Assembly (NCBI GenBank): GCA_947166275.1
Contig: CAMVDP010000016.1
Location: 1 to 48,091, forward strand
Length of the DNA: 48,091 nucleotides
Source: an uncultured Clostridia bacterium
GTDB taxonomy: Bacteria; Bacillota; Clostridia; Oscillospirales; Ruminococcaceae
Reading direction: 5' to 3'
The notes below the pieces were generated by a model, which made no database searches, was not told where the DNA came from, and was given only the letters and a program-made list of their open reading frames with translations. This document shows positions 2,368-35,048 of the stretch, piece by piece (the first letter of the stretch is position 1; the number at the start of each line of letters is the position of its first letter). Both the position numbers and the translations under genes were made by a program.

Positions 2368-4869
2368 ATGAAATTCGGTTACTTCGACGACGCCAACAAG
2401 GAGTACGTCATCACATCGCCCAAGACCCCCTATCCGTGGATCAACTATCTCGGAACACAAGGGTTCTTCTCGCTGATCTCCAACACCGCAGGCGGCTACA
2501 GCTTCTATAAGGACGCAAGACTTCGCCGTATCACGCGTTACCGCTACAACAACGTCCCCGTTGACATGGGCGGTCGCTATTTCTATATAAATGACGACGG
2601 TCATGTATGGAACCCCGGCTGGTCCCCCGTCAAGGCTGACCTCGACAGCTACGAGTGCCGCCACGGTATGGGCTACACCATTATAAAGGGCGAGTCCAAG
2701 GGCATCGAAGCCAAAGTCACCTTCTTCGTTCCCCAGAACTTCAACGGTGAGATACAGAAGGTAACGCTCACAAACAAGACCGGCGCTTTCAAGAAGATAA
2801 AGCTGTTCAGCTTCCTTGAATGGTGCCTCTGGGACGCACAGGACGACTCCACGAACTTCCAGCGTAACTTCAACACCGGCGAAGTCGAGATCGAAGGCAG
2901 CACTATCTATCATAAGACCGAGTACAAGGAAAGACGCGACCACTTCGCATTCTACTCCGTAAACGCGAAGATCAGCGGCTTCGACACCGACCGCGAGAGC
3001 TTCCTCGGTCTGTACAACGGCTTCGGCGAACCGCAGACCGTTATGCAGGGCTCGCCCAACAACTCCGTTGCTGACGGCTGGTCGCCTATCGCGTCGCACT
3101 ACATCGATGTGAGCCTCGAAGCAGGCGAAAGCAAGGACTTCGTATTCGTGCTCGGCTACGTTGAGATGCCTGTCGCAGAAAAGTTCGCTCCCGATCTCAC
3201 ACCCGATGACAAGATAATCACAACCGCAAACTCTAAGAAGAATATCATAAACAAGACAAAGGCTCACGAAATGATAGCTCTCTGCGATACCGCGGAGAAG
3301 GCTGACAAGCTGTTCGCTGACCTCAAGGCTTACTGGGATACCCTGCTTTGCCAGTACCATGTTGAGTCTCCCGATGAGAAGGTCAACAGAATGGTCAACA
3401 TCTGGAACCAGTACCAGTGTATGGTAACATTCAACATGTCCCGTTCCGCTTCCTACTTCGAGAGCGGCATAGGCAGAGGCATGGGCTTCCGCGATTCCAA
3501 CCAGGATCTGCTCGGTTTCGTTCATCAGATCCCCGAGCGCGCAAGAGAGCGTGTGCTTGACCTCGCAGCTACGATGCTTGAGGACGGCGGCGCTTACCAC
3601 CAGTACCAGCCGCTTACCAAGAAGGGCAACCACGAGCTCGGCTCGAACTTCAACGATGACCCGCTGTGGATGATACTCGCAGTCGCGGCGTACATCAAGG
3701 AGACCGGCGACAAGTCCATTCTTGATGAGGTAGTTCCCTATGAGAACGACGAAAGCAAGGCGGCATCCATGCTCGACCACATGAAGCGTGCTTTCGACCA
3801 CGTTGTACGCAAGCACGGACCTCACGGACTGCCGCTCAGCGGACGCGCTGACTGGAACGACTGCCTGAACCTGTCCTGCTTCTCCGACAAGCCCGGTGAG
3901 AGCTTCCAGACCTATAACAACAAGGAAATGTTCAAGGATCCGCCGTTCTACAGCCAGGTAGCAGAGTCCGTAATGATCGCCGGAATGTTCTGCTTCATAG
4001 GACCCGAGTACGCAGCTATGTGCAGACTTAAAGGCGATGAGGAAGAGGCAAAGCGCGCCGATGCCGAAGTCGCAAAGATGAAGGAAGCAACCATGAAGTA
4101 CGGCTTCGACGGCGAGTGGTTCCTGCGTGCATACGATCACAACGGCAACAAGGTCGGCTCACACGAGTGCGAGGAGGGCAAGATCTTCATCGAGCCCCAG
4201 GGCTTCTGCGTTCTCGCAGGTCTCGGCAAGGAGACAGGCGATGACATCAAGACCCTCAACAGCGTTGATAAGTACCTCAACTCCGACCACGGCCTAGTGC
4301 TCAACAACCCGGCATTCACCCATTATTATATACAGTACGGTGAGATCTCCACTTACCCCGGCGGTTACAAGGAGAATGCGGGCATCTTCTGCCACAACAA
4401 TGCGTGGATCATGTGCGCCGAGGCATTCGCCGGCAGAGGTGACAAGGCGTTCGAATATTATTCAAAGATCGCTCCCGCGTTCAGAGAAGAGCACTCCGAC
4501 CTCCACCGCACCGAGCCCTACGTTTACGCGCAGATGATCGCAGGCAAGGACGCTCCGAGACACGGTGAAGCAAAGAACAGCTGGCTCACCGGTACGGCGG
4601 CATGGAACTTTGTAGCGATCTCACAGTATATCCTCGGCGTAAAACCGAAGTATGACGGACTTGAGATAAGCCCCTCTATCCCGAAGGCATGGGACGGCTT
4701 CAAGATCTCCAGACTGTTCAGAGGCGCTACCTACAACATCACAGTCAAGAATCCCGACCACGTTTCAAGCGGCGTGAAGGCTATGACAGTTGACGGCAAG
4801 GCTGTTGACGGCTGCCTTATCCCCGCGTTCGCCAACGGCGTTCACGAGGTAGAAGTAGTTCTTGGCTGA
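2368..4869 (+). CDS. cbp: Cellobiose phosphorylase (GH94)
   Basis: 833 residues, near the usual length of about 810 for cytosolic cellobiose phosphorylases. The start [14 protein letters not shown] matches the family N-terminus and follows AAAGGAC; the frame is open upstream only without a ribosome site. The enzyme splits cellobiose with phosphate into alpha-glucose-1-phosphate and glucose, saving one ATP per disaccharide. Visible family blocks are [10 protein letters not shown], the stretch [24 protein letters not shown] with the general acid at about Asp495, and [13 protein letters not shown] motifs near the end ([12 protein letters not shown]). No signal peptide, as expected for an intracellular enzyme. 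It is monocistronic, with its own promoter and strong terminator, so no transporter or regulator is linked to it here. Cellodextrin phosphorylase is a less likely alternative, being longer (about 1000 residues). Confidence 0.96.
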
Positions 4870-18043: not shown

Positions 18044-18499
18044 TCACCCCGAATTATGCGACTTCCTCCAATCCGCGTTGGAAACGAACTCCTCGATGAA
18101 AAGCTCGTTCTCCTTCTGCTCGGCGGCCTTATAGTCGTCCAGCTGGTGCTCCTCAAGTCGTTCGAGCTTCGAGACCTCTTTGGTCGCCTCGATCACGTTC
18201 TGCAGCTGCATCTCGATCTTGCGGTTCTGCATCAGTATCTGGTGGCGCTTCATGTGGAGCTCCTGCTGCTTATTGTTGATGTAGCGCTTATGCAGGGCTA
18301 TCTCCTGCGCAGTGGTGCCTCGTGTGTACAGCTCCATAAGATCGCGGTTCAGCTTCGCAAGCTCTTCGAGTATCTGCTCAAGCTCGGCTTCAAGCTGCCG
18401 CAGCTCCGCACGCAGCTCAGATAAAGTTGTCTTCTCGGTATCGAGCGACTGCTCGCGGTATTCTTTCAGCCTTTGGAGCGTAAATACGAACTTTTTCAC
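18044..18499 (-). CDS. fliJ: Flagellar export chaperone FliJ
   Basis: 151 residues, starting at GTG 18499 (MKKFVFTLQRLKEYREQSL, the usual FliJ opening) with GGGGG upstream. Nearly the whole protein is one long coiled coil, as in FliJ, which folds like the gamma stalk of F1-ATPase, inserts into the FliI hexamer and helps load export cargo. The gene starts 23 bp after the fliI stop, so the two are co-translated. Sequence conservation in FliJ is low; position after fliI supports the call. Confidence 0.88.
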   Translation of the reverse strand: MKKFVFTLQRLKEYREQSLDTEKTTLSELRAELRQLEAELEQILEELAKLNRDLMELYTRGTTAQEIALHKRYINNKQQELHMKRHQILMQNRKIEMQLQNVIEATKEVSKLERLEEHQLDDYKAAEQKENELFIEEFVSNADWRKSHNSG

Positions 18500-18522: not shown

Positions 18523-19830
18523 TCAGCTTACCGCTTCCTTCAGCAGCCGTATCGTCTCGTCCAGCGAGAAGCTCTCGTCCGTGCGCTGACACAGGAAGCC
18601 GTTTATCTTGTCTATCTTGCTTACCGCCTCATCAAGCTTCGGGTTGGTGCCCGCTTTGTACGCGCCTATGGAAATAAGGTCGAGGTTCGCGTTATAAAGC
18701 GCCTGCAGATTTCGCAGCTTGCTCGCGGCAGCCTTGTGGTCTTCGTTACATATTATCGCCATGAGTCGCGATACGCTCACGGATATATCTATCGCGGGAT
18801 AGTGATTCTGCGCCGCGATCTTTCGTGAAAGCACGATATGTCCGTCGATGATACCTCGCACGGTATCGGCTATCGGCTCGTTGGTATCGTCACCCTCGAC
18901 GAGCACAGCATATATGCCGGTGATGCTGCCCTTTTCAAAGCAGCCCGCACGCTCAAGGAGCTTCGGCATCTGCGCGTATATCGACGGTGTGTAGCCGCGC
19001 GCGATAGGCGGCTCGCCTATTGACAGTCCTACTTCACGGTTCGCCATCGCAAAACGCGTCAGGTTATCCATCATCAACAGCACATCCTTGCCCTGCGACA
19101 TGAAGTACTCCGCTACCGCGGTCGCGGTCATCGGGCATTTGTAGCGCATCATCGCAGGCTGGTCGGAGGTAGCTACCACGACCACCGAACGTGCCATGCC
19201 CTCGTCTCCGAGGTCATTCTCGATAAACTCTCTTACCTCTCTTCCACGCTCTCCAACAAGCGCTATCACGTTGATATCCGCCTTGACCTTGCGGGCGATC
19301 ATGCCCATGAGAGTACTCTTACCAACGCCGGAGCCTGCGAAAATACCGATACGCTGACCTTTACCGAGGGTGAGTATCCCGTCTATCGCCTTGACTCCGA
19401 GCTCAATGGGCTCCGCTATCTTCGGTCGTGTGAGCGGGTTTACAGGCATACCGGATATAGACACGCTTCCGGTATAGTTTATCTCGCCCTTGCCGTCGAT
19501 AGGCTCACCGATAGCGTTGATTATGCGCCCGATCATGGCGTCGCCGGTCTTGACGCGAAGCTTGTCACCCGTATTGTCCACAATACTTCCGGGACCTACG
19601 CCCTCAATGTCCGTGTAGGGCATGAGCAGCACCTTTTCGGACTGAAATCCCACGACCTCGGCGTATATGTACTTCTCACGGTCCTCCTTCGAGTAAATAC
19701 GACAGATATCGCCGATATTGCACTCGGGACCCGAGCTTTCGATAGTCATGCCGACTATTTTCTCGATCTTTCCCATGTAGCGGTACATATCGAGTCCGCC
19801 TATCTCGGAGCGGAATCCCCGAAGGTCCAT
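18523..19830 (-). CDS. fliI: Flagellum-specific ATPase FliI
   Basis: 435 residues, normal length; start at 19830 after AAGGAGAAC. F1-like ATPase with Walker A GSGVGKST (166-173), the LVGERGREVREF motif, and the FliI/SctN block GEPPIARGYTPS. It energises unfolding and delivery of export substrates to the flagellar type III gate, with FliH as regulator and FliJ as stalk. The N-terminal 15 residues (MDLRGFRSEIGGLDM) may not all be translated; Met15 is a possible alternative start, but the ribosome site favours Met1. Confidence 0.96.
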   Translation of the reverse strand: MDLRGFRSEIGGLDMYRYMGKIEKIVGMTIESSGPECNIGDICRIYSKEDREKYIYAEVVGFQSEKVLLMPYTDIEGVGPGSIVDNTGDKLRVKTGDAMIGRIINAIGEPIDGKGEINYTGSVSISGMPVNPLTRPKIAEPIELGVKAIDGILTLGKGQRIGIFAGSGVGKSTLMGMIARKVKADINVIALVGERGREVREFIENDLGDEGMARSVVVVATSDQPAMMRYKCPMTATAVAEYFMSQGKDVLLMMDNLTRFAMANREVGLSIGEPPIARGYTPSIYAQMPKLLERAGCFEKGSITGIYAVLVEGDDTNEPIADTVRGIIDGHIVLSRKIAAQNHYPAIDISVSVSRLMAIICNEDHKAAASKLRNLQALYNANLDLISIGAYKAGTNPKLDEAVSKIDKINGFLCQRTDESFSLDETIRLLKEAVS

Positions 19831-19902: not shown

Positions 19903-21132
19903 TTATGCGTTTTCTATCGCCTTTTCGATGTCGTCATCGTCATCATCATCGTCAGTGTCGTCGATCTCGGGCTTCGGCTTGCCGGAAGTATATACCACAT
20001 CGGGTATTGCAGGCTCCGGTTCAGCTTCGGTCTCGTCAACGGTGATCTGCTCCGGCTGGGGCTCTTCCTCCTCTTTGGCAGCGGCTTTCTTACGACCGCC
20101 ACCGCGCTTCGGCTTTGCGGCAGCCTGGCTCTCCTGGAGCATATCCGTGAGGTTTTTGTCACGGTACTTGCCCTTTCCGAGCTGTTCCACCATTTTGAGC
20201 TGGGTCATGACGCTCGCGTCGGTGATCTCCGAGCCGTCATCGATCAGCAGAGTGCCTGCCGGTGCATCATCGAGTATCTCGATCTCGACATTCTCACAGC
20301 TTCGGAACACATCTTTGAGCAGATCCTCATCGATATCGGCTTCCTCGCTCACATCGAGCTTTGAGAGCGTGAGCTTGACATTCTTGCTTGTTTTGAACTT
20401 ACGCCCCGCCTCATGTATCATTCGTGTGATTATGCCTTTTTCCTTCTGACCGAGAGCGCCGAGAGTAACACGCTGAGCGATATCGAATATGGTATCGAAC
20501 AGCTGACGCTCATACTGCATCATTATCTCGGTCTTGTCCGCTGTGACCTGCTCTGACAGCGACTTGAGCTCGAGCAGCGTTTCCTTGCACTTTTTCAGCG
20601 CTTTTACGTAGCCCTCGTCATATCCCTGCTTTGAGCCCTCGTCGTAGCCGTCCTTTTTCGCCTGTTCGGTGAGCTTTTCGGCCTCGGACTTTGCGCTTCT
20701 TATGATCTGTTCAGCTTCGCTTCTCGCGTCGAGAATGGTCTGCTGAGCGATCTCCTTTGTTTTTTCGTATATTTCGGTAGCTTTGGAACGCGCACGAAGA
20801 ACGAATTCTTCGGACTCGTGCTCGTACTTGCTTCTTATCGATTCATACTCCGCGATGAGCTTTTCACGCTCGATACGCGCTTCCTCGGCAGGTACGGTCT
20901 TATCGTCCGAGGGAGCTGTCTCGCTGTTACCGGCGCTATCCTTACTGTCCCCAAGGAGTTTTTCTACCGCTGCCATAGCCTTTGAATCGCGGTCATTGCG
21001 GTGCTGTATCTCGGCTATCTTCTGCGCGTTGGGATTTTTGCCGTAGACGGTCTTCATTACAGGCTCGTCGGTATCAAAGTTATTGACATATACATAACCG
21101 ATGCCGATACCGCCCTTGATGACTTCTGCCAT
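19903..21132 (-). CDS. fliH: Flagellar assembly protein FliH, extended
   Basis: 409 residues, much longer than typical FliH (about 210-280). Residues about 85-190 form a long coiled coil (ARSEAEQIIRSAKSEAEKL), 190-320 hold the conserved FliH/V-ATPase-E-like domain (FDTIFDIAQRVTLGALG, then DDAPAGTLLIDDGS). FliH dimers hold FliI inactive and dock it to the export gate and C-ring. Unusual additions: an N-terminal 60-residue stretch and a C-terminal tail of about 70 residues with a basic patch (KPKRGGGRKKAAAK) followed by Glu/Pro-rich sequence and eight consecutive Asp residues. The tail is likely disordered. Start after AAAGGAGGGG at a spacing of about 11. Confidence 0.9.
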   Translation of the reverse strand: MAEVIKGGIGIGYVYVNNFDTDEPVMKTVYGKNPNAQKIAEIQHRNDRDSKAMAAVEKLLGDSKDSAGNSETAPSDDKTVPAEEARIEREKLIAEYESIRSKYEHESEEFVLRARSKATEIYEKTKEIAQQTILDARSEAEQIIRSAKSEAEKLTEQAKKDGYDEGSKQGYDEGYVKALKKCKETLLELKSLSEQVTADKTEIMMQYERQLFDTIFDIAQRVTLGALGQKEKGIITRMIHEAGRKFKTSKNVKLTLSKLDVSEEADIDEDLLKDVFRSCENVEIEILDDAPAGTLLIDDGSEITDASVMTQLKMVEQLGKGKYRDKNLTDMLQESQAAAKPKRGGGRKKAAAKEEEEPQPEQITVDETEAEPEPAIPDVVYTSGKPKPEIDDTDDDDDDDDIEKAIENA

Positions 21133-21178: not shown

Positions 21179-22210
21179 TTACGCGATGATCTCGTCCTCT
21201 CCGCCCTTGGAGATGGTGAGCTTGCCCTCGTCCTCGAGACGACGTATGATAGCGACGATACGCTGCTGCGCTTCTTCAACGTCACGCATACGAACATTGT
21301 GCAGATACTCGACGTCGGTCTGGGTGGACTCTTTGTTTCTCGAGGACATATTCGCGTAGATAACGTCCGCGACTTCGGCGGTAGAGCCCTTGATAGCCAC
21401 CGCGAGGTCTTTCGGATCGACTTCGGTGATGAATGCCTGGATAGACATGGAATCGAGTCCCACGATATCCTCGAATACGAACATTCGGGAGCGGATATCG
21501 TCCGCAAGCTTCGGATCGCGGAGATTGAGCTCGTCGAATATATATTTCTCGGTCGAACGGTCGACCTTGTTGAGTACGTCTGCGATATAGTTTACACCGC
21601 CGACCTCCATGTTCTCGGTGGTGACGATATTTGCGAACTTCTTTTCAAGCGTGGTCTCAAGGCTCTTAACGACGTCAGGTGACGCGGACTCCATCTTCGC
21701 GATACGCTCAACGACCTCGATACGCATCTCTTTGGGAAGCTCGGCGATGATAGCCGATGCCTGGTCACTTCTCGCATACGAAAGTATCAGCGCGATAGTC
21801 TGCGGGTGCTCATTCTGCACAATAGCGAGCAGGTTTTTATAGTCCGCCTTACGCACGAACGCGAAGGACTTGGTCTTGAGCTGTTTGGTTATCTTGTCGA
21901 ACAGTGAGGAAGCCGCCTGCGGGCCGAACGCCTTTTCGAGTATCTCACGTGCGTACTCGACACCGCCCTCGGATATTACCTTCTGGGTGAGGCAGACCTC
22001 ATAGAAATCATTGAGGACATCGGTCACGACTTCAACGGGCCAGTAATCCATCTTTGCGACTTCAAGCGTGAGCCGCTCTATCTCATCGTCCGAAAAGAAC
22101 TTGAACACTCTCGACGCGTTTTCCGAGCCGATAGCCGAAATGACCATAGCCGCCTTCTGCATCATATTCATATCGCCGGCGTTCTGAGGCGCCTGCTGCT
22201 GTTCAGCCAT
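21179..22210 (-). CDS. fliG: Flagellar motor switch protein FliG
   Basis: 343 residues, the family length; start at 22210 after AAAGGGG. N-domain (FliF-binding) about 15-105, middle domain with the EHPQTIALIL signature near 133-142, C-domain with the charged torque helix (about 280-305, VDPKDLAVAIKGS region). FliG forms the rotor ring between the MS-ring and FliM/FliN and contacts the stator. It lies directly after a small gene that repeats the FliG-binding tail of FliF, which matters for how its N-domain is occupied. Confidence 0.97.
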   Translation of the reverse strand: MAEQQQAPQNAGDMNMMQKAAMVISAIGSENASRVFKFFSDDEIERLTLEVAKMDYWPVEVVTDVLNDFYEVCLTQKVISEGGVEYAREILEKAFGPQAASSLFDKITKQLKTKSFAFVRKADYKNLLAIVQNEHPQTIALILSYARSDQASAIIAELPKEMRIEVVERIAKMESASPDVVKSLETTLEKKFANIVTTENMEVGGVNYIADVLNKVDRSTEKYIFDELNLRDPKLADDIRSRMFVFEDIVGLDSMSIQAFITEVDPKDLAVAIKGSTAEVADVIYANMSSRNKESTQTDVEYLHNVRMRDVEEAQQRIVAIIRRLEDEGKLTISKGGEDEIIA

Positions 22211-22252
22211 TCGTATGATCCCCTTTCGTTTGATATACCCGTTCCGGGCGTA

Positions 22253-22432
22253 TTATTCCTCGCTGTTGAGCCAGCCGCGGAGCAGCTTTGCTACCTGCTC
22301 CGGCTCCATAGCCGAGAAATCCCCCAGCTCCTTACGGAGAAGCTCTGTCTTGATCTCGTTGTTTGTCTTGTCCGAAAGGCTCTTGAGCATTTCGGACATA
22401 TCCTTGCGATCCCTGTCATTTCTGTCTGTCAT
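22253..22432 (-). CDS. 59-residue protein duplicating the FliF C-terminal (FliG-binding) tail
   Basis: A complete small gene between fliF and fliG: ATG at 22432 with GAGG eight bases before, TAA at 22253-22255; 31 bp after the fliF stop and 42 bp before the fliG start. Its last 44 residues align without gaps to the last 44 of FliF and end at the same residue; I count 18 identities, 13 of them in the last 28 (LRKELGDFSAMEPEQVAKLL against LKKEIREFSQTNPEIVAQLI, then RGWLNSEE against RTWMKGDE). In FliF this tail binds the FliG N-domain. The small protein has no membrane segment. It probably arose by duplication of the fliF 3' end and may bind FliG in solution or fill FliG sites. Function is inferred only. 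Confidence 0.85.
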   Translation of the reverse strand: MTDRNDRDRKDMSEMLKSLSDKTNNEIKTELLRKELGDFSAMEPEQVAKLLRGWLNSEE

Positions 22433-22463
22433 GGTGATCCTCGCTTATCTTACGCGGCATACT

Positions 22464-24134
22464 TTATTCGTCGCCCTTCATCCAGGTACGGATAAGCTGT
22501 GCAACGATCTCGGGGTTGGTCTGCGAGAATTCGCGGATCTCCTTCTTGAGCATTGCGTCTCTCGAAGCCTCGTTCTCGTCGCCGGAAAGGCTCTGGAGCT
22601 CGAAGTCGATGTCTGCTGCGCCATCCTCCGCACGCCTGCGTATCTCGTCCTCGTCATAGGACATATTCACAGCCGCAGGAGCGCCGTTGGACGATGCCGC
22701 CAGCGCTGCCGCGCGTCTTGCCTTGAGTCTCTTCTTGCTCGAGCCCGCAGCCACAAGTGCCGTTACGAGCAGCACTATCAGCAGTATACCGAGCGCGATA
22801 ATGATGAATACGAGTGTATTTCTGCCGCCCTGTACGATAACTCCGCCGTCGCCTGGGCCTTCGCCGGTTCTGTCGAGCGTGAAGTTGGTGGGAATGAATG
22901 TTACCTTGTCGGATGTTGTGCCTATCGCGTCCGCGATGAGCTTCTCCCAATCGGCGATGTTCGCCTGTGTGAAGTTCTCGGGGTCATCGTCGACTATGAC
23001 GGATGCCGAAATGTTATCGTAGCTGTAGCCATCCTTTTCGATCTGCTTGATAGCCTCGTTTACGAGGTAGTGTATCTCGTGCTGTGTCTCATAATAGAAC
23101 TCGTCGCCCTCGCCGATGCGGAGTGTCGGGTAATCCGGCGAGATATCCGAGTTGACTGTCGTGCCGACGAGTCCGCCTTCTTCGGCATTCCCTCCGCCGG
23201 CAGATACGATCTTCTCATCCTGGACCATACCGCCGTGGTTGCCGTCCTCGCTTACCGAGGGGGTGTACTCTTTTATCTGCGACACGAGCGAATCATAGTT
23301 AAGACGCACATCCACGCCTATCCTGTAATCCGGGAACACCTTTTTGAGCAGTGCGCCCAGCTTGTCATCAAGTATCTTGGATATTTCCTTCTGGAATTCC
23401 AATCGTCTGTAGTAAAGTTGAGTTTCGTCCTCGCTGTCGAGCTTCTTCTCGACCTCCTCTGTCGAGAGCAGCTCACCCTTGTTGTCCGTTACGGTTATGT
23501 TTTCCTCTTTGAGTCCCGGTACAGCCGTTCTTACGAGGTTGTAGATACCCTTGATCGTGTTGGTGGTGAGCGTGTGTCCGAGGTTGAGCACAACAGATGC
23601 TCCGGCCTCCTCACGGGAATTGGATATAACGTAGTCGTTTGAGTCCGGTATAGAGAGAATAACTATCGCGGAATCGACTCCGTCGTATGTAGCGAGTGTC
23701 GCGCGCAGATTTTCCTGGAGCTGCTGTTTTTCCTTGACTCGCTTGTCGGACTCGGTGGAGAACATTCCCACGCCGTTGTCCCATATATTATAGTTGAAGG
23801 TCGATTTCGGGTAACCCTTGACGCTCAGCTGTGCACGCAGCGTTTCGACCTTGTTTGCGGGTACGAGTATATCTCCGTTCGCGTCGAACTTTACGTCCGT
23901 TTCACCGAGCTCGCTCTGAAGGAGCGAGATGACCTCCGCGGTCTCCTCGTTTGACGCTCCGCTGTAAAGCACAGCGTACCGCGTTATGGAATTAAGGACG
24001 ATAAGGATTATCAGTGATAGTATCACGACTGACGCGACGGATATTACCACGATCTTTATCTTCTTGTCGAGAGAAGTCCAGCGCGTTTTGATCGTGCCGT
24101 ATATCTTCACGAACGTTTCTTTAGCTTTATCCAT
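22464..24134 (-). CDS. fliF: Flagellar MS-ring protein FliF
   Basis: 556 residues, normal length. First membrane helix about 28-48, YscJ/FliF ring-building domains about 50-230 (YAVLYSGASNEETAEVISLL; KEKQQLQENLRATLATYDGV), FliF C-terminal periplasmic region to about 430, second helix about 441-464 (NTLVFIIIALGILLIVLLV), then a cytosolic tail ending in the FliG-binding helices. FliF builds the MS-ring that houses the export gate and anchors the rotor. The start at 24134 has AGGGG at a spacing of about 10. The next gene downstream repeats its tail. Confidence 0.97.
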   Translation of the reverse strand: MDKAKETFVKIYGTIKTRWTSLDKKIKIVVISVASVVILSLIILIVLNSITRYAVLYSGASNEETAEVISLLQSELGETDVKFDANGDILVPANKVETLRAQLSVKGYPKSTFNYNIWDNGVGMFSTESDKRVKEKQQLQENLRATLATYDGVDSAIVILSIPDSNDYVISNSREEAGASVVLNLGHTLTTNTIKGIYNLVRTAVPGLKEENITVTDNKGELLSTEEVEKKLDSEDETQLYYRRLEFQKEISKILDDKLGALLKKVFPDYRIGVDVRLNYDSLVSQIKEYTPSVSEDGNHGGMVQDEKIVSAGGGNAEEGGLVGTTVNSDISPDYPTLRIGEGDEFYYETQHEIHYLVNEAIKQIEKDGYSYDNISASVIVDDDPENFTQANIADWEKLIADAIGTTSDKVTFIPTNFTLDRTGEGPGDGGVIVQGGRNTLVFIIIALGILLIVLLVTALVAAGSSKKRLKARRAAALAASSNGAPAAVNMSYDEDEIRRRAEDGAADIDFELQSLSGDENEASRDAMLKKEIREFSQTNPEIVAQLIRTWMKGDE

Positions 24135-24196: not shown

Positions 24197-24526
24197 TTAA
24201 ATGCTCATTCTCATTATCTCGTTATATGCGTCAACAGCGGCGTTCTTGATATTCACGAAGAGCTCCGTTGCTATTTCCGCCTTTGCTATGTTCATCTGTA
24301 TCTGTTCAAGGTTGTCCGTATCGCCGAGCATCAGGTTTATCATATCTGCGCTTTTCTGCGCCTGCGCATCGGCAGCCTGATCCCAAAGTCCTATGAGTGC
24401 GTCAAGGAACGTGCCGGTCTTCTGTCCGTCCTCGCTGACGACGGCGGTCTTCTGCGCCGAGACGTTGGAAACGAGCCTGTCGACGGCGGGAAGGGTATGT
24501 ATTGCGGGTGACATCGGTATTATCAT
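24197..24526 (-). CDS. fliE: Flagellar hook-basal body protein FliE
   Basis: 109 residues with the conserved FliE C-terminus (IQMNIAKAEIATELFVNIKN and AYNEIMRM). FliE joins the MS-ring/export gate to the proximal rod. Start at 24526 after AAAGGAAC; 21 bp after the flgC stop. Confidence 0.95.
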   Translation of the reverse strand: MIIPMSPAIHTLPAVDRLVSNVSAQKTAVVSEDGQKTGTFLDALIGLWDQAADAQAQKSADMINLMLGDTDNLEQIQMNIAKAEIATELFVNIKNAAVDAYNEIMRMSI

Positions 24527-24547: not shown

Positions 24548-25051
24548 TTACGATTTTCCGATAGTGAGCGCCTTGTTCGCTATCGCTTTGAGGCTGTTGA
24601 ATATCGTGAGGTTCGCGGAGTACGACTGAGTAGCCGCGAGCATATCTATTTCCTCCTCTGCCACATCGACGTTCGGGCGGTAATAGTAGCCGTCCTCGTC
24701 AGCGTCGGGGTGAGTCGGGTCATATACCGGGGTCGGGGGCGTCTGATCCTCGACTATCTGTGTGAGCAGCACGCCTTCAAGGGTCTGTGTCCTGTTGCGT
24801 CCCGCGAGTCCGCGGAGCTCCTCAAGGTGCTTACCGAGCACGGTCATGAACTCGATCCTGCTTGAGCTGTCATCGGAAACGCGCTGATAGGTCTTGTTCT
24901 CGGTGAACACCACGTTCTGTCTCACATAGGGGCCGCCCTTGGCGGTACGGGTCGTATCGGCGTTCGCGACATTCTGCGCGATAACGTCCATACGCGCGCG
25001 CTCGGCGATCATGCCGGACACGGCTATATCAAGGTTACTCATGAATGCCAT
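24548..25051 (-). CDS. flgC: Flagellar basal-body rod protein FlgC
   Basis: 167 residues. N-terminal rod motif (SNLDIAVSGMIAERARMDVI, then AQNVANADTT) and the C-terminal heptad region (AATQSYSANLTIFNSLKAIA). FlgC is a proximal rod subunit exported by the flagellar secretion system. Start after AAAGGAGATAATTGAT; 23 bp after flgB. Confidence 0.96.
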   Translation of the reverse strand: MAFMSNLDIAVSGMIAERARMDVIAQNVANADTTRTAKGGPYVRQNVVFTENKTYQRVSDDSSSRIEFMTVLGKHLEELRGLAGRNRTQTLEGVLLTQIVEDQTPPTPVYDPTHPDADEDGYYYRPNVDVAEEEIDMLAATQSYSANLTIFNSLKAIANKALTIGKS

Positions 25052-25074: not shown

Positions 25075-25539
25075 TTACGACTTGCGCATCGCGGTACGCA
25101 TCATCGTAAACTCGGAGTTTATCTGATTTATCAGAGCCTCGTACTGCAGCGCGTTCTTCGCGAAGAGCGCTTCCTGGGTATCGGCATCAACGTTGTTTCC
25201 GTCGGGCTGATCAGCGGTCACCTCGTCGGTGTGCAGCGCCGTTGCGAGTTCTATCTTCCTGCCTTTGAGCTCTACTATGGGCTTCGCGTCAAAATCATAG
25301 TGCGGCTCGTCCGAATTTCTCTCAAAGCCGACATCTTTTTCAAAGCCTGTGCTGAAAGTCGTCTCCTTTGACATCTCTTCGAGCTTCTCACGAAGCACCG
25401 CCGAGAAATACAGGTATTTGCACTTATAGTCCGGGGTATCCTGGTTAGCGATGTTCTGCGCTATGACCTGCTGCTGCTTTGTAAGCAGCTGGAGCCCCTG
25501 CGAAGCTATACGGAATGCGGTTGTGTCGAATAATGCCAT
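25075..25539 (-). CDS. flgB: Flagellar basal-body rod protein FlgB
   Basis: 154 residues, somewhat longer than many FlgB (about 130-140). N-terminal rod motif with QQQVIAQNIANQDTPDYK, and a C-terminal helical segment (LQYEALINQINSEFTMMRTA). First gene of the flagellar operon; start at 25539 after CGGAGG. Followed in order by flgC, fliE, fliF, the FliF-tail gene, fliG, fliH, fliI and fliJ, all on the same strand with short gaps. Confidence 0.94.
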   Translation of the reverse strand: MALFDTTAFRIASQGLQLLTKQQQVIAQNIANQDTPDYKCKYLYFSAVLREKLEEMSKETTFSTGFEKDVGFERNSDEPHYDFDAKPIVELKGRKIELATALHTDEVTADQPDGNNVDADTQEALFAKNALQYEALINQINSEFTMMRTAMRKS

Positions 25540-26740: not shown

Positions 26741-27451
26741 ATGCGCGACAGAAGCGGTATAATGAGCGTTCGTGTCACCGGTATGGACGGATCGCTGCTG
26801 TTCGAAGCAGACAGCGAGCACTTCTCTTTCCCGAGGATGTTCATACATAATATGCCAGTCAACAACATCATAATGATAAAGCAGAAGTCTCTCCCACAGT
26901 TCGAGGCAGACAGCGCGGTCTACGTCATCGCCCACATGAAAAACGGCGACCGTATCAAGTATACAGGAAGAGTCAAGCTGTCCCTCGAAAACCAGATAAA
27001 TATCCAGATCCGCGATGAGTACGGTACCCTTATGGAGGAACGGCGCAGATACTTCAAGGTGCAATCCTCGCTGCGATGCGTCATAAGCGGATATGAGCGC
27101 GATGATACGGTATATGAGTTCGAGACCCCTCTCATATCGACGATCAAAAACGTGAGTATCGGCGGCGTGTTCATCGAAGGAACAGACCCGCCCTTCCGTA
27201 AAGGCGACATACTCCTGCTCAACTTCAAGGTCGAGCGTGAAGTCGTCGGAGCCGTTGTGGAAGTGCTTCGCCTACAGCTTTTCAGCGACGGTACGCTGGA
27301 GGGCTATGGATGCGAGTTCACCAACGTTGACAAGAAAATGGAAGGCCTTCTCGCAAAGCTCGTCTACGGCATTCAGATGAAGCAGCGTCAAGAGAAGCTC
27401 GAAAACGACCTCCGCAAGGAGGAAGCCCAAAAACGTATCAAAGGCTCTTAG
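26741..27451 (+). CDS. PilZ-domain c-di-GMP receptor (YcgR-like)
   Basis: 236 residues; start after GGAAAGGAGGGAG. An N-terminal YcgR-type domain (about 1-95) is followed by PilZ (about 100-215). The c-di-GMP motifs are RRRYFK at 101-106, where the last Arg of RxxxR is Lys, and NVSIGG at 137-142 (consensus D/NxSxxG). Proteins of this layout bind c-di-GMP and slow or stop flagellar rotation by touching the motor (YcgR, or MotI/DgrA in Bacillus). Location next to the flagellar operon and directly upstream of a GGDEF gene supports a motility role. The C-terminus is a Lys/Glu-rich helix. Confidence 0.88.
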   Translation: MRDRSGIMSVRVTGMDGSLLFEADSEHFSFPRMFIHNMPVNNIIMIKQKSLPQFEADSAVYVIAHMKNGDRIKYTGRVKLSLENQINIQIRDEYGTLMEERRRYFKVQSSLRCVISGYERDDTVYEFETPLISTIKNVSIGGVFIEGTDPPFRKGDILLLNFKVEREVVGAVVEVLRLQLFSDGTLEGYGCEFTNVDKKMEGLLAKLVYGIQMKQRQEKLENDLRKEEAQKRIKGS

Positions 27452-27521
27452 CGCACCGCGCTGACAGTTTTTGCGCGGTCATGCGGCCGCCGTATATTAC
27501 ACGATAGGAATGGTACAGTTT

Positions 27522-29492
27522 ATGAATATCAAGGTAAAAACCGCCCTCAGGGCAATACTTATCGGCGCGACTGTCTTACCCCTTATAGTAGTTGCAGTCG
27601 TCGCGGCGATACAGATATTCGGATTTTCACAGAGTATGATAAACGAAGAAGCCGCAACCTCGGGCTCGGCATTGAGCTCAAGCGTCTCGAATGTGGTTGA
27701 AATCTATTCGGAGACCGTTAAAGCCTTCTCGGGAATGGATTTCGTTAATCGTTCGATAAACGACCTGAATAAAGTCAAGAGTGATCTCGATACATTGTCA
27801 CAGGCGCTCAAGGCAGACGGAAAAGTGCATGACCTCGTTGTTACCGACGGTGCAGGCGGCATCATCTACAGCTCGAAAGGCATCAGCGTCGGTAATCACT
27901 TCTTCGCAATAGATGACAATACCGCATCAAAATCCGGCGTTATCGTATCAAACTTCTTCCCCGGCGAAACAACATACGGCGCAAACGTGTTCGCAGTCAC
28001 CGCTCCCCTTACCGGTACAGGCAACGGCTATGTTTCCATAGTCGCAGATATCTCCTCGATAACAAGCTGCATCGCTGACAAGCATTTCCTCGAAGTAGGT
28101 TCGCTCGTTATATCCGATGAGATCAACGCAATAAATTACAACGGCGAAGCTATCGGCGCTAACAGCGAGCTTTCGGCTGTTTTACAGCCCGATATTCCGT
28201 CCATGATCCGCTCCAACGTACAGGACGCGGGTGAAAAGTTCACAAGCAGCCAGTACCTCGGCGCTTACGGCAAGATCAAAGGCGCAGACTGGGTATGGAT
28301 CTCGGTTTACCCGGCTTCCTCCGCTTCCGGCTCCGTGATGCTCGTATTCATCGTCGGTATGGCTATCATCGCCGCGCTTATCCTTATATGTGTGCTTATA
28401 ATGGTTCTTGCTACACAGAAGGTCATCGACCCGATGCTCGGCATGCTCAAGACCATGAAGGAGATCAACTCCGGCAACCATACCGAGCGTATCGATACCG
28501 CCGGCATGGGCAAAGAGTTCGCGGGTATGTCCAACGTATTCAACGAGATGATGGATGAGTCGCTGATGAGCGAGGAACTTCACAAGACAATATCCGATAT
28601 TTCCGATAACATGCTGTTTGAGTGGGATTTCTCCAAGGAAAGCATGTTCGTATCCGAAAACTTCAAGACTAAGATCGGTCTCAATATTTCAGGCGCAACG
28701 CTCAACAACGGTAAGTTCCTCGATTCACTCATGGACGAGGACGACTCCGAAAAGTACAAGCGCGACATGAATACCCTCTTCAAGGAGAAGGGCGATGTCG
28801 GCGGCGAATACAAGATAAAGACACCGAACGGCCAGGAATTGTGGTTGGCAATGAGAGCTCGCTGCGTTACAGACCGTCTCGGCGAAGTGCTCCGCGTTAT
28901 CGGAGTCCTTTCCGATATCACAAGCGAGAAGAACGCTACACTCAAGCTCGCCGAGCGCGCAAGCTTCGACTTCCTCTCGCAGCTGTACAACAGAAATACC
29001 TTCGAGCGTGAGTTTGCCGCTGAACTTGAAAGAAATGTCGGCAAGAAGGTCGCTGCTCTGTTCATAGACGTCGATGACTTCAAGTTTATCAATGACCGCT
29101 ACAGCCACGCTGTCGGTGATGAGGTCATCAAGTTCGTCGCTGATATCATCAAGGGCAAGACCGGTGAGACCGGCTTCGCGGGACGTTTCGGCGGTGATGA
29201 GTTCGTACTCTGTATCTCCGACCCCGACCTTGTAGAGAACGTCGAAGTCCTCTCCATGGACATCATCGATGACCTGTACGCGGGTTATACCTCACCGTCC
29301 ATCAATACCACACTCAACATCAAGGCAAGTATCGGTATCGCGATCTACCCGGATCACAGCACCGACGGAAAAGAGCTTGTCGGCTGCGCTGATGCCGCTA
29401 TGTACTTCGTTAAGAAGAACGGTAAGGCGAACTATCATATCTTCGTTCCCGAGGATAATCAGCTTGAGGGTAACCACTCTTATTCCATGTAA
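27522..29492 (+). CDS. Membrane diguanylate cyclase (Cache-like, HAMP, PAS, GGDEF)
   Basis: 656 residues from ATG 27522 (AGGA 12 bases upstream); the longer frame starts inside the gap without a site. First helix about 10-32, an extracellular dCache-like sensor about 35-265, second helix about 272-297, HAMP about 300-345, PAS about 352-475 (SDNMLFEWDFSKESMFVSEN) and GGDEF from about 485 with GGDEF at 557-561. Intact active-site motif, so it should make c-di-GMP from GTP. The feedback site RxxD before the motif is KTGE, so product inhibition is probably lost. 70 bp after the PilZ receptor gene, the likely effector of its product. Confidence 0.92.
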   Translation: MNIKVKTALRAILIGATVLPLIVVAVVAAIQIFGFSQSMINEEAATSGSALSSSVSNVVEIYSETVKAFSGMDFVNRSINDLNKVKSDLDTLSQALKADGKVHDLVVTDGAGGIIYSSKGISVGNHFFAIDDNTASKSGVIVSNFFPGETTYGANVFAVTAPLTGTGNGYVSIVADISSITSCIADKHFLEVGSLVISDEINAINYNGEAIGANSELSAVLQPDIPSMIRSNVQDAGEKFTSSQYLGAYGKIKGADWVWISVYPASSASGSVMLVFIVGMAIIAALILICVLIMVLATQKVIDPMLGMLKTMKEINSGNHTERIDTAGMGKEFAGMSNVFNEMMDESLMSEELHKTISDISDNMLFEWDFSKESMFVSENFKTKIGLNISGATLNNGKFLDSLMDEDDSEKYKRDMNTLFKEKGDVGGEYKIKTPNGQELWLAMRARCVTDRLGEVLRVIGVLSDITSEKNATLKLAERASFDFLSQLYNRNTFEREFAAELERNVGKKVAALFIDVDDFKFINDRYSHAVGDEVIKFVADIIKGKTGETGFAGRFGGDEFVLCISDPDLVENVEVLSMDIIDDLYAGYTSPSINTTLNIKASIGIAIYPDHSTDGKELVGCADAAMYFVKKNGKANYHIFVPEDNQLEGNHSYSM

Positions 29493-30961: not shown

Positions 30962-31157
30962 ACAGTATATGCCGCACACCTCGTTCGTGATGTTGTCCGC
31001 CAACCCGCCTTAAAGAGCATTTTTTTGCTTCTTTGCCGTCACCGACACACCGATCGGTATCATGGTTATGACTTTTTTCGCGAAAAGCCTTTATTTTTGA
31101 CGAGATCTGTGATATAATAAATATAATTATGTAATGACTCTGTATGGAGATGAGAAG

Positions 31158-34100
31158 ATGACCTTTGAGGAAAAGCTCGAACGAGCTAAAAGCGGCAGCC
31201 GTGCGACCTATGAGGCAATGTGCCTGGGTTCTGTCGATAAGCTGTACACCGCCGCTCTTATATCTCTCAAAAGTGAAAAAGAGGCCGCCGCTGCAGTCGT
31301 ATCGGCTGTGAACGACGGATTTTCCGGTATATCAAGGATCAAGGACGAGCGTCACCTACGCTCGTGGCTTATCCATGAGCTCACAAAGAATACCGTTGAC
31401 AGGCTCAAGGAGCTCAAAGCCGACGGTACGGTATATACCCCTTCCGGTGTGTTCGCGGAAACAGGCAGACTCCCCGATGTGGAGAGACTGATATTCGCAG
31501 TGTCCTCGGTCTTTGGCTGCGGCGGGCGTGAGATATCGGTGCTCACGGGCATGTCCGGTGAGACCGTGGAAGAAAAGCTTACCTCTGCGAAAAAACGACT
31601 CGGCACTGCTTACAGCAGTATATGCGAAGCTGCGATAGCGTACAGAGCTCCCGACTCGCTGCGTGAACGTTATTCGGGGTTCGACGAGGTAGTGGAAAGT
31701 ATCGAGAAGTCGCTTTCCGAGCCTTCTCCGGAAGAAGCGCCCGCCCCAGAGGGGACAAACGTCCCCAAGGAGACAAACTCCCCCAAGGAGACAAACGTCC
31801 CCGAGGAGACAAACGTCCCCGAGGAGACAAACTCCCCCAAGGAGACAAATGTCCCCGAGGAAACACCCGTCTCCGAAGATACATCTGACAGCGAAGAACC
31901 TGACGACGCAGTGTTTACCGACGATGACGAGCAGGTATTCGATGACGAATACGAGGAAGATGACGAGCCCTCCGAAAATGAGGAAATGCCGCTCAACGCC
32001 GAGACGTTCATGGCGGTGGTCTCCGCCGAAAGAATGAAGGGCAGCGAGTTCCTGCGCCTTATTGGCAACACCCGAATAAGCAACAGCGCTTTCCGCGAGA
32101 TCGAACAAAATCCCCGTCTCACGAAGAAACGCCTTATTGAGCTGCTTGAACAGTCACAGCTCACCGAGAACGACTATTACAAGATGCTGACCGCGATAAA
32201 GGATCGCCGCGATGTACTGGACGCGAAGGAGGAGAACCGCCTTGTACTGGAGCGCGCCGGACTTTATGACGGCTCCCGCCGTGCACGCGGCAGAAGAAAG
32301 CACCGTGAAAAGCCCAAGACCGAGCTTGAACTCGCTATCGGCCTCAGCGATAAGAAGCCCGAGCGCTCTCTCACATTCGAGAAAAACACGATGCCGGAGA
32401 ACGACCTTGACTATCAGCTGTGCAATTCCAAGGGCGTTTTCTCCTACCCCGGATACTTCCACGACCATAAAAAGCCTGACGCAGAGGACAGAAACAAGCT
32501 TGAAGCGGCAGTAATGGCAAACAGCATCTCCTCCGCAGAGGATAACCCCATGAGCCATGCAGCGCTTCACGACCTGTTTGACGATCAGAACAGCGAGCCG
32601 ATAGACCCCTTCGCCGCGATAGCTGCCAACGAAACAGGCGAACCGGTAAAGCCCGACAGGATAGACAACCTGCATGAAGAGTGGAACAGAAGAAGCATAG
32701 AGCAGACCGAAGAGAAACCGAAAAATGATCCCGTACCGGATACGGCTACCGCAGAGTTCGAAATAGCAAAGACAAACGAGATAACCGCTGACACCAGACC
32801 GTTCGATGCCGTAACTCCGGAACAACAGCCGGAGCCTGTTATGGGGTACGACCCGTTCGCACACGCCGACGAGTTATACGGTGCCGCCGACGAAGACGAG
32901 ACTGAAATAGTCACTACACCGATACAGGACGGTATATCGGTCACGCAGATAATCCGCGAGCACGCGACAGGTGAGGACGTTACCGACGCGCAGGCCGAAC
33001 TCGCGATCGGCAGTAACGACCTGATATTCAGCGAATATAACGATGCCGGAACAGATGACGCACCGGCAGTTCCGCCTGCAGAGAGCAGCGGCAGCGATGA
33101 CGACGACGATTCCGCGTATACGCCGGAGATATCGAGCGACGGATCCGATGACGAGATATTTGATGACCCCTCGGAGGACGATGAGGACGAGGTATCCCCC
33201 GTTTCGCCTATCGCACAGGGCGCAGTTCCGGTGAACCTCGATAAAGGAACTGACCTGCCCGGCGATGACGATGAAGAGGAAGAGGACGATGAAGACGATG
33301 ACGCGGGCTCTTTCGACGAATCTCCGAGACGGCGCTATAAGGGCAACGAGTTCTTCTACGATGACAACAAGTTCTATGAGGGCGTGAACCGCGGCAAGAT
33401 AGCGGCGTGCGCAGTATTCGCGGCGCTGTTGATAGCGGGAAGCGTAGGAATGAGGTTCCTGCCGGGAATACAGGAAACGCCTGCCGAAGAGCCCGAACAG
33501 ACGACAGTAAGCGAGAACGAGCCTGACGAGACTACCGCGCAGCCCGAAGATATACCTGTCGACGATTTCACGGAGACGGTCACACTCACCAAGCTGTCAT
33601 CGCTTTCCGAGCTTACATCGGGTCATCCGACTGACACTGCTGCCGCTCCCGCGAAGACGGAATATCTTTGCGCGTCAGGTACGCCGTTCGATACTGACCT
33701 TGTAACGGATCCTGTGAGCTGCGGCGCGGTATTCACTGACAGTACCGCGTACCTTTACTCCCGGAACGAGAAGCTCTTCCGCGCTGTAAAGCTTGACGCT
33801 GCCGATGCCGCGGAGACCGATACTGGCGCGGAGACCGAGAGTGAACAGGCTCCTTCCGATGCACAGCTTCCCATTTCACCGGACAGAGTCTACGCGTTCA
33901 CAGCCATTGACGGCGACCTGTATATCGTCTGCGCGCCTGAAGTCGGAGGCAACACCTGTGTGATCGTCTGCGGTCCGGATATGGCGCAGAAAGCAGAGTA
34001 CTCCTTGAGCGGCAAGTACTGCGGAGCAGGAAAAGTGAACGGAAGGCTCGTGATATCCACCTGTGAATACAGCGGACAGCCGTACTATACCGAGAACGGT

Positions 34101-35048
34101 GAACGACATGACCTCGCCGCATCGGACATATACTCGATAGAGGGTACGAAGTACGGCGCCGTACATCAGATCTGGACAGTCGGAAGCGGAAAGCCGCTGG
34201 CGATCGTCGGCGGACAGGCGTCCGACAGCATCCCGAACCCGCATGTAAAGTTCACCGCCGACGGCATCACACTTGTGAGCGTGGACGGCGATGTGACATA
34301 TACCGTAGATATTTCAGGCTCGCTTGAGCCCGGCGAAGCTCGCGCCTACAAGGGCTGTGCGTTCAGCGCTGACTGCGCGGGAGCCGGCGGCATGATAGGC
34401 GCTGACGCGGAGCGCGGACTTACCGCGTATAAGAACGGACATCTCGTTACTGTGTCCGATGTTACCGTTCTTTCAGTGGCATGGTCAGACAGCGGGATCG
34501 CATACGTCGTCGCACGGCAGAACTCTGACAACCAGAAAATGCTGTACGGCTTTGACATGAGCGGTGACGAACCTGTGAACGCGAACATCACCGCCGATGA
34601 CATACACACAACGCTGCTGCGCTCTGTGGGTGACAGCCTGGCGGGTGTTAAAGCAGAACCTGCGCCCGACGGTGAGCGTACAGGACTGCGGCTTTCGCTG
34701 TACACCTACGACGGTAAGCTCACAGAGACCGCGTACTCGATAATCGAGCTTGACAAGGCTACCTCACGTGAAAATCTCAAATACCTGAGCAGCCCCGCGG
34801 AAACGGATATCGGGATGCTCGCCGCAAATGAAAGCGGAACGCTGTTTGCGGTACCGACAGTTTATTTTGACGGGTTCTCCGAGGTGGAGCGGGTAGTAGT
34901 GCTCCGCTTTGACGGCACCACCTTTACCCAGACCGGTGAGCTTATCACCTACGATGAAAAGTCTCCGATGCTATGCCCGTTCATACGCGACGATAAAGTG
35001 TACGTTATAGCCGGCGGCAAAATTGCCGAAATACCTTTTACAGATTAA
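31158..35048 (+). CDS. ECF-sigma-like domain fused to acidic linker, membrane helix and beta-propeller-like region
   Basis: 1296 residues; the start at 31158 follows GGAG at spacing 8 (ATG 31134 lacks a site). Residues about 1-90 resemble sigma-70 region 2 (DKLYTAALISLKSEKEAAAA, then HLRSWLIHELTKNTVDRLKE) and about 105-160 region 4 (GREISVLTGMSGETVEEKLT). A six-unit hexapeptide repeat follows (about 199-235), a helical segment (about 275-370), long Asp/Glu-rich linkers, then one membrane helix at about 746-766 (KIAACAVFAALLIAGSVGM). The outer 530 residues have beta-propeller-like strands (SGKYCGAGKVNGRLVISTCE). This would place a sigma-like domain inside and a sensor outside. Key sigma residues are degenerate, so DNA binding is uncertain. 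No anti-sigma gene is adjacent. Confidence 0.75.
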   Translation: MTFEEKLERAKSGSRATYEAMCLGSVDKLYTAALISLKSEKEAAAAVVSAVNDGFSGISRIKDERHLRSWLIHELTKNTVDRLKELKADGTVYTPSGVFAETGRLPDVERLIFAVSSVFGCGGREISVLTGMSGETVEEKLTSAKKRLGTAYSSICEAAIAYRAPDSLRERYSGFDEVVESIEKSLSEPSPEEAPAPEGTNVPKETNSPKETNVPEETNVPEETNSPKETNVPEETPVSEDTSDSEEPDDAVFTDDDEQVFDDEYEEDDEPSENEEMPLNAETFMAVVSAERMKGSEFLRLIGNTRISNSAFREIEQNPRLTKKRLIELLEQSQLTENDYYKMLTAIKDRRDVLDAKEENRLVLERAGLYDGSRRARGRRKHREKPKTELELAIGLSDKKPERSLTFEKNTMPENDLDYQLCNSKGVFSYPGYFHDHKKPDAEDRNKLEAAVMANSISSAEDNPMSHAALHDLFDDQNSEPIDPFAAIAANETGEPVKPDRIDNLHEEWNRRSIEQTEEKPKNDPVPDTATAEFEIAKTNEITADTRPFDAVTPEQQPEPVMGYDPFAHADELYGAADEDETEIVTTPIQDGISVTQIIREHATGEDVTDAQAELAIGSNDLIFSEYNDAGTDDAPAVPPAESSGSDDDDDSAYTPEISSDGSDDEIFDDPSEDDEDEVSPVSPIAQGAVPVNLDKGTDLPGDDDEEEEDDEDDDAGSFDESPRRRYKGNEFFYDDNKFYEGVNRGKIAACAVFAALLIAGSVGMRFLPGIQETPAEEPEQTTVSENEPDETTAQPEDIPVDDFTETVTLTKLSSLSELTSGHPTDTAAAPAKTEYLCASGTPFDTDLVTDPVSCGAVFTDSTAYLYSRNEKLFRAVKLDAADAAETDTGAETESEQAPSDAQLPISPDRVYAFTAIDGDLYIVCAPEVGGNTCVIVCGPDMAQKAEYSLSGKYCGAGKVNGRLVISTCEYSGQPYYTENGERHDLAASDIYSIEGTKYGAVHQIWTVGSGKPLAIVGGQASDSIPNPHVKFTADGITLVSVDGDVTYTVDISGSLEPGEARAYKGCAFSADCAGAGGMIGADAERGLTAYKNGHLVTVSDVTVLSVAWSDSGIAYVVARQNSDNQKMLYGFDMSGDEPVNANITADDIHTTLLRSVGDSLAGVKAEPAPDGERTGLRLSLYTYDGKLTETAYSIIELDKATSRENLKYLSSPAETDIGMLAANESGTLFAVPTVYFDGFSEVERVVVLRFDGTTFTQTGELITYDEKSPMLCPFIRDDKVYVIAGGKIAEIPFTD
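31754..31861 (+). repeat. 18-bp tandem repeat coding for (T-N-x-P-x-E)n
   Basis: GACAAAC recurs at 31754, 31772, 31790, 31808, 31826 and 31844, exactly 18 bp apart, encoding six copies of a hexapeptide such as TNVPKE, TNSPKE or TNVPEE. It lies in the linker after the sigma-like domain. Copy number could change by slippage without shifting the frame. Confidence 0.9.

Follow-up and report, generated by a model that had tools for sequence, protein, structure and literature searches.

The joint between the C-terminal tail of the MS-ring protein FliF and the N-terminal domain of FliG (FliG-N) transmits motor torque and is thought to template the size of the C ring. Why would a bacterium encode this tail a second time, as a free protein, between the genes of both partners? 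The question is raised by a 59-codon open reading frame (ORF) in a 48,091-nucleotide stretch of DNA, hereafter the window, from an uncultured Clostridia bacterium of the Ruminococcaceae (GenBank assembly GCA_947166275.1, contig CAMVDP010000016.1). A preliminary description made from the sequence had placed the ORF between fliF and fliG without naming its strand; it is real and lies on the minus strand (Table 1). We read it as a lineage-restricted small gene, kept by selection, that encodes a free copy of the FliG-binding tail of FliF, with FliG-N as its likely partner.

A small gene between fliF and fliG

A spacer of 31 nt separates the fliF stop from the ORF, and another of 42 nt lies between the ORF and the fliG start. 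Neither a sigma-70 promoter pattern nor a terminator pattern was found on the minus strand at 21900-22900, and co-transcription with the flanking genes is therefore plausible. The genome of the window, which is 81% complete, contains a single fliG, with two PF14842 matches that both fall inside that gene. The 409-aa ORF at the place of fliH has no Pfam match at E 0.001.

Table 1 Flagellar features in the window, by window position
Feature	Position	Strand	Description
Stand-alone FliF-tail gene	22253..22432	minus	59 codons, 59 aa; ATG at 22432, TAA at 22253-22255
Shine-Dalgarno-like GAGGA of the small ORF	22438..22442	minus	5 nt upstream of the ATG
fliF, MS-ring protein, parent gene	22464..24134	minus	556 aa; Pfam PF01514 and PF08345 match
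FliG-binding C-tail of fliF, last 59 codons	22467..22643	minus	End-to-end homology with the stand-alone gene
fliG	21179..22210	minus	343 aa
FliG_N domain PF14842, presumed partner	21863..22171	minus	Putative partner, from published FliF-tail:FliG-N structures
Two rod genes, Flg_bb_rod	25075-25539, 24548-25051	minus	Probably flgB and flgC, by gene order
fliE	24197-24526	minus	Flagellar cluster of the window
ORF at the place of fliH	19903-21132	minus	409 aa, acidic C-terminal stretch
fliI	18523-19830	minus	Flagellar cluster of the window
fliJ	18044-18499	minus	Flagellar cluster of the window

The small gene descends from the tail of fliF

The last 44 residues of the small protein align without gaps to the last 44 of FliF, with 18 identities and both sequences ending at their stop codon, which reproduces the alignment of the preliminary description. 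The best local BLOSUM62 score between the two proteins is 94, compared with a mean of 32 (s.d. 4.8, maximum 55) for 2000 shuffles of the ORF, and residues 15-58 match positions 512-554 of the 555 in the fliF model TIGR00206 (E = 0.0036); the score of 16.3 bits comes from the last 43 positions only and does not reach the curated cut-off of 129.75 bits. Together, the shuffle scores and the TIGR00206 match rule out chance similarity. No Pfam family, including the ring domains PF01514 and PF08345, matches the 59-aa protein.

Homology covers the whole ORF. In the window, 20 of 59 residues are identical in an ungapped alignment, and the copy in a second genome (G011) shares 30 of 58 residues with the end of its own FliF, again without a gap and with Met opposite Met. 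In global alignments, the first residue of all five copies that we recognised (see below) falls opposite one fixed site in FliF, the x of DEEExRR, about 58 residues before the end, the start in G077 being the first of two in-frame ATGs by assumption. Searches of the PDB with the copies alone gave nothing significant (the FliF chains had E-values of 0.35 and 1), and with 11 FliF tails added to the copies the search returned the solved FliF 6scn, which we take to be the Salmonella protein, at E 0.02. Judged from these alignments, the ancestry of the small gene is secure: it can be regarded as a stand-alone paralogue, a duplicated FliF C-tail, and by sequence it is assigned to the FliF C-tail module up to the C-terminus.

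Two other origins were considered and rejected. For a phage source, the best PHROG match had an E-value of 0.023 and came from one of the five copies, and two scans of viral contigs gave no confirmed relative. For a readthrough fusion to FliG, fliG is read in the same frame as the ORF in the window and G076, but in a different one in G002, G011 and G077.

The copies are under selection

The closest pair of copies, those of the window (G000) and G076, has a dN of 0.21 and a dS of 1.39 (NG86), with 12, 7 and 28 differences at the three codon positions; equal synonymous and non-synonymous rates, which the preliminary description had named as counter-evidence, are thus not what is seen. Across the seven of ten pairs with a defined dS, which is saturated in several, dN/dS ranges from 0.15 to 0.79 (the latter for G076/G011); NG86 values are quoted because YN00 yielded none for all ten pairs. 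When the same substitutions were placed at random in four of the ten pairs, results as conserved as the real pair arose in 0, 6, 2 and 3 of 5000 trials. In the closest pair 39 residues stay identical, where the simulations reached at most 37 in 5000 trials; across the four pairs, 3682 to 4175 of 5000 simulations acquired an internal stop. Codon-position bias alone gives p-values of 0.0005 and 0.008 in two of the four pairs and 0.08 and 0.11 in the others. A plain pseudogene was rejected on the grounds that the tested pairs are more conserved than under simulated substitution.

Translation signals point the same way in most carriers. Upstream of the copy, the anti-SD duplex has -8.4, -8.9, -5.9, -8.2 and -4.3 kcal/mol in G000, G076, G002, G011 and G077, and before fliF, in the same order, -5.7, -6.8, -7.5, -4.0 and -4.0 kcal/mol, such that the copy scores at least as well as fliF in four of five genomes. 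The duplex before fliG in the window has -7.8 kcal/mol. Measured against the 10th percentile of start contexts (-5.9 for 1499 ATGs of the window, about -6 across genomes), three of five copies reach the mark, G002 falls narrowly short and G077 is weak. We are close to certain that the small gene is a real, selected gene. The copies are 42-67% identical to one another, compared with 84-96% for the tails of FliF in these genomes; the copy evolves faster than the FliF tail, though under purifying selection.

Distribution and history

Conservation in related genomes, whose absence the preliminary description had named as counter-evidence, holds within a narrow group. The copy lies between fliF and fliG in all five of its carriers (G000, G076, G002, G011 and G077), but these are five of 71 genomes of one genus, and none was recognised outside it. 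A frame of at least 385 aa that matches the FliF tail with an E-value no higher than 2.5e-8 occurs in 56 of the 71. FliF-tail matches occur in 79 of 396 genomes of the family sample, 69 of 394 of the order sample and at least 177 of 398 of the phylum sample. Besides the window's own, no stand-alone copy was recognised in the family and order samples, nor in the phylum sample among the matches listed.

Several short frames with a FliF tail were set aside in this survey. Those in G291, G576 and G555, as well as frames of 216 aa (G115) and 278 aa (G734), are cut by contig ends, and those in G235 and G473 stand at contig starts by their coordinates. The family sample added two such frames, one of 215 aa in G1135 and one of 243 aa in G853. 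A scan of genome contigs with short patterns from three copies returned three loci and missed the copy of G077, and its silence elsewhere is therefore weak evidence. Long fliF-fliG gaps in G022, G061, G069 and G092 contain no FliF-tail-like frame by eye.

Three separate observations came from these surveys. In G598 (L095, G598:C44:78900-83000), the FliF tail is out of frame with the rest of fliF, in a 95-aa open frame before fliG; this could come from a frameshift or from faulty assembly, or FliF could be split in this genome. G948, of the family sample, has two long-frame FliF-tail matches, of 480 and 564 aa on contigs C48 and C72, which would reflect either a second flagellar system or a bin of mixed origin. 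An inexact tandem repeat of about 100 nt is seen by eye in the 440-nt gap of G022 (L089), with no FliF-tail likeness.

In a tree of FliF and FliG proteins, the five carriers fall in a clade of eight genomes (support 88) together with the non-carriers G034, G060 and G071, which group with the carrier G077 (support 82). The tree covers 32 genomes of the genus plus an outgroup (33 in total), with other FliF-bearing genomes left out; G014 was omitted because of an in-frame stop in its fliG. The simplest reading is one gain and one loss of the small gene. In the three non-carriers, at most 57 nt separate the fliF stop from fliG, and there is therefore no room for it. Near relatives whose FliG is 90-96% identical also lack the gene, and since they and the three clade members manage without, it is dispensable and its function auxiliary.

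How might the gene have arisen? In the history that we propose, the last ~58 codons of fliF were duplicated in tandem in the ancestor of this small Clostridia clade. An internal Met codon of fliF would, in the simplest course of events, have become the start of the copy, and the copy its own gene, encoding a FliF C-tail that is soluble and has neither membrane helices nor ring domains. Among the 19 nearest relatives, a Met stands at or one residue past the end of the acidic run of FliF (DEEEM), about 57-62 residues before the FliF end, in 12 of 14 non-carriers and two of five carriers (by eye); the FliF of the window has Ile at this site (22641-22643, minus strand). It is possible, if improbable, that an internal start at this Met yields a free tail in the relatives, and that the clade moved the product to a gene of its own. 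The acidic codons before the Met resemble a ribosome-binding site, no stronger than synonymous coding predicts in 17 genomes, and selection for an internal start beyond the amino-acid sequence was rejected by this comparison.

A proposed provisional partner for FliG

Residues 514-560 of Salmonella FliF are described in the C ring with FliG, wrapping FliG D1 (PMC11087270), and FliG_N is reported to shift its conformation in order to co-fold with the FliF tail, their coevolution falling mainly within the final 20 residues of the tail (PMC6079021). The small protein corresponds to the same sequence module, with the same end point, as the FliF tail of this co-folded domain; in contrast to FliF, it is separate and lacks the membrane helices, ring-building motifs and beta-collar. 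On the strength of the known co-fold, the free tail probably binds FliG-N.

What such binding would achieve can be said only tentatively. The possibility that we favour is that the free tail, made beside FliG, would serve FliG-N as a provisional co-folding partner, stabilising FliG or preventing premature stacking, until the FliF tails of the MS ring displace it, winning by avidity. This reading is preferred because FliG-N changes conformation on binding FliF, as PMC6079021 reports, and the gene adjoins fliG, and because a free tail of full strength, present at levels like those of FliF, would otherwise disturb assembly. At such levels, a provisional partner could itself impede assembly.

The free tail might also stay in the finished C ring and complete those FliG-N domains that lack a FliF tail, a suggestion we consider unlikely. 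It has a real basis in published FliF33:FliG34 particles, in which FliF and FliG are not strictly 1:1 (PMC11087270), and in the minority of C rings that differ by one subunit from a 34-fold MS ring, although most rings match in the same account (PMC8270960). The gene covers the whole tail module and is kept, yet each motor would offer it just one or two sites, which fits poorly with a gene whose anti-SD score is mostly no weaker than that of fliF. More doubtful still is the stronger form of the idea, in which the free tail would be a rotor subunit at FliF-less FliG-N positions that uncouples C-ring size from MS-ring size.

Microproteins are single-domain competitors derived from larger proteins. 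The small gene resembles them as a binding domain that duplication separated from its parent; its target would be a motor ring, and competition is hypothetical. As such a competitor, the free tail would vie with FliF for FliG and limit the number or timing of motors. A binding module without effector parts, encoded between both partners and plausibly co-transcribed with them, would suit this role. However, a competitor that is invariably produced together with its target regulates nothing if both are translated alike, and a FliF ring of about 34 subunits should beat a monomer by avidity; this role, too, seems to us improbable.

A new partner or job, for which FliF would be ancestry only, gains some plausibility from the divergence of the copies relative to the FliF tails and from residues peculiar to them. 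We aligned the five copies with 11 hand-chosen FliF tails. All copies have M or L at position 42 and N at 56, neither of which occurs in any of the 11 tails, and never N at 43, where nine of the 11 tails have it. Because the copy departs from FliF at 42, 43 and 56, its affinity may be low or its partner different. The shared residues fit a single origin and, we infer, a changed, perhaps weaker, grip.

Against a new partner stands the conservation of the docking half. Residues 31-57 have a mean identity of 67% among the copies and residues 1-30 of 31%, and the matching parts of the FliF tails 90% and 85%; constraint falls mostly on the half that matches the FliG-docking part, to which published work assigns the contact with FliG. 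Nine positions are invariant or nearly so across the 16 sequences (35, 36 (I/L), 39 (F/Y), 44, 47, 48, 50, 52 and 54), and all five copies keep them, with the I/L and F/Y swaps; Q49 is K in the window copy. We consequently hold a wholly new partner to be a rather remote prospect. A co-adapted FliG was also considered and dropped, as no gap-free FliG column separates the five carriers from 13 non-carriers.

That the gene is a decaying, functionless remnant of a tandem duplication is hardly credible: its fast evolution (the highest dN/dS of any pair), the small clade with at least one loss and the weak ribosome-binding score in G077 would fit, but the frame is open with start and stop in five genomes and all four tested pairs beat random placement of substitutions.

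Relation to known systems

Among the matches listed in the open-access literature, judged by title and abstract opening, no counterpart of a free FliF-tail protein was found, in agreement with the preliminary description, which knew of no described protein of this kind. SwrB, which has a link to FliG and FliF, is an accessory protein of basal-body assembly. In Bacillus subtilis it is described as a monotopic protein that activates the export apparatus during assembly of the basal body (PMC4526659), and the small protein may resemble it as an accessory protein of that assembly. In Salmonella, FliF-FliG fusions and C-terminally truncated FliF are reported to alter ring size, symmetry or switching (PMC6445934, PMC8270960); these laboratory constructs modify the FliF-tail:FliG-N link itself, whereas the small gene adds a further tail in nature and leaves fliF and fliG intact.

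A natural free half of the FliF-tail:FliG-N joint, kept by selection beside both partners, would be a ready reagent. With it one could ask genetically if FliG requires a FliF tail earlier than the MS ring or independently of it, and how closely FliF and FliG must match 1:1. It also illustrates how duplicating part of a core motor gene can give rise to a small gene.

Neighbouring genes

Divergent from the flagellar cluster, on the plus strand at 26741-29492, the window encodes a PilZ protein followed by a PAS-GGDEF protein, and control of motility by c-di-GMP is possible. Further along the same strand (31134-35048) lies a 1304-aa ORF without a Pfam match at E 0.001.
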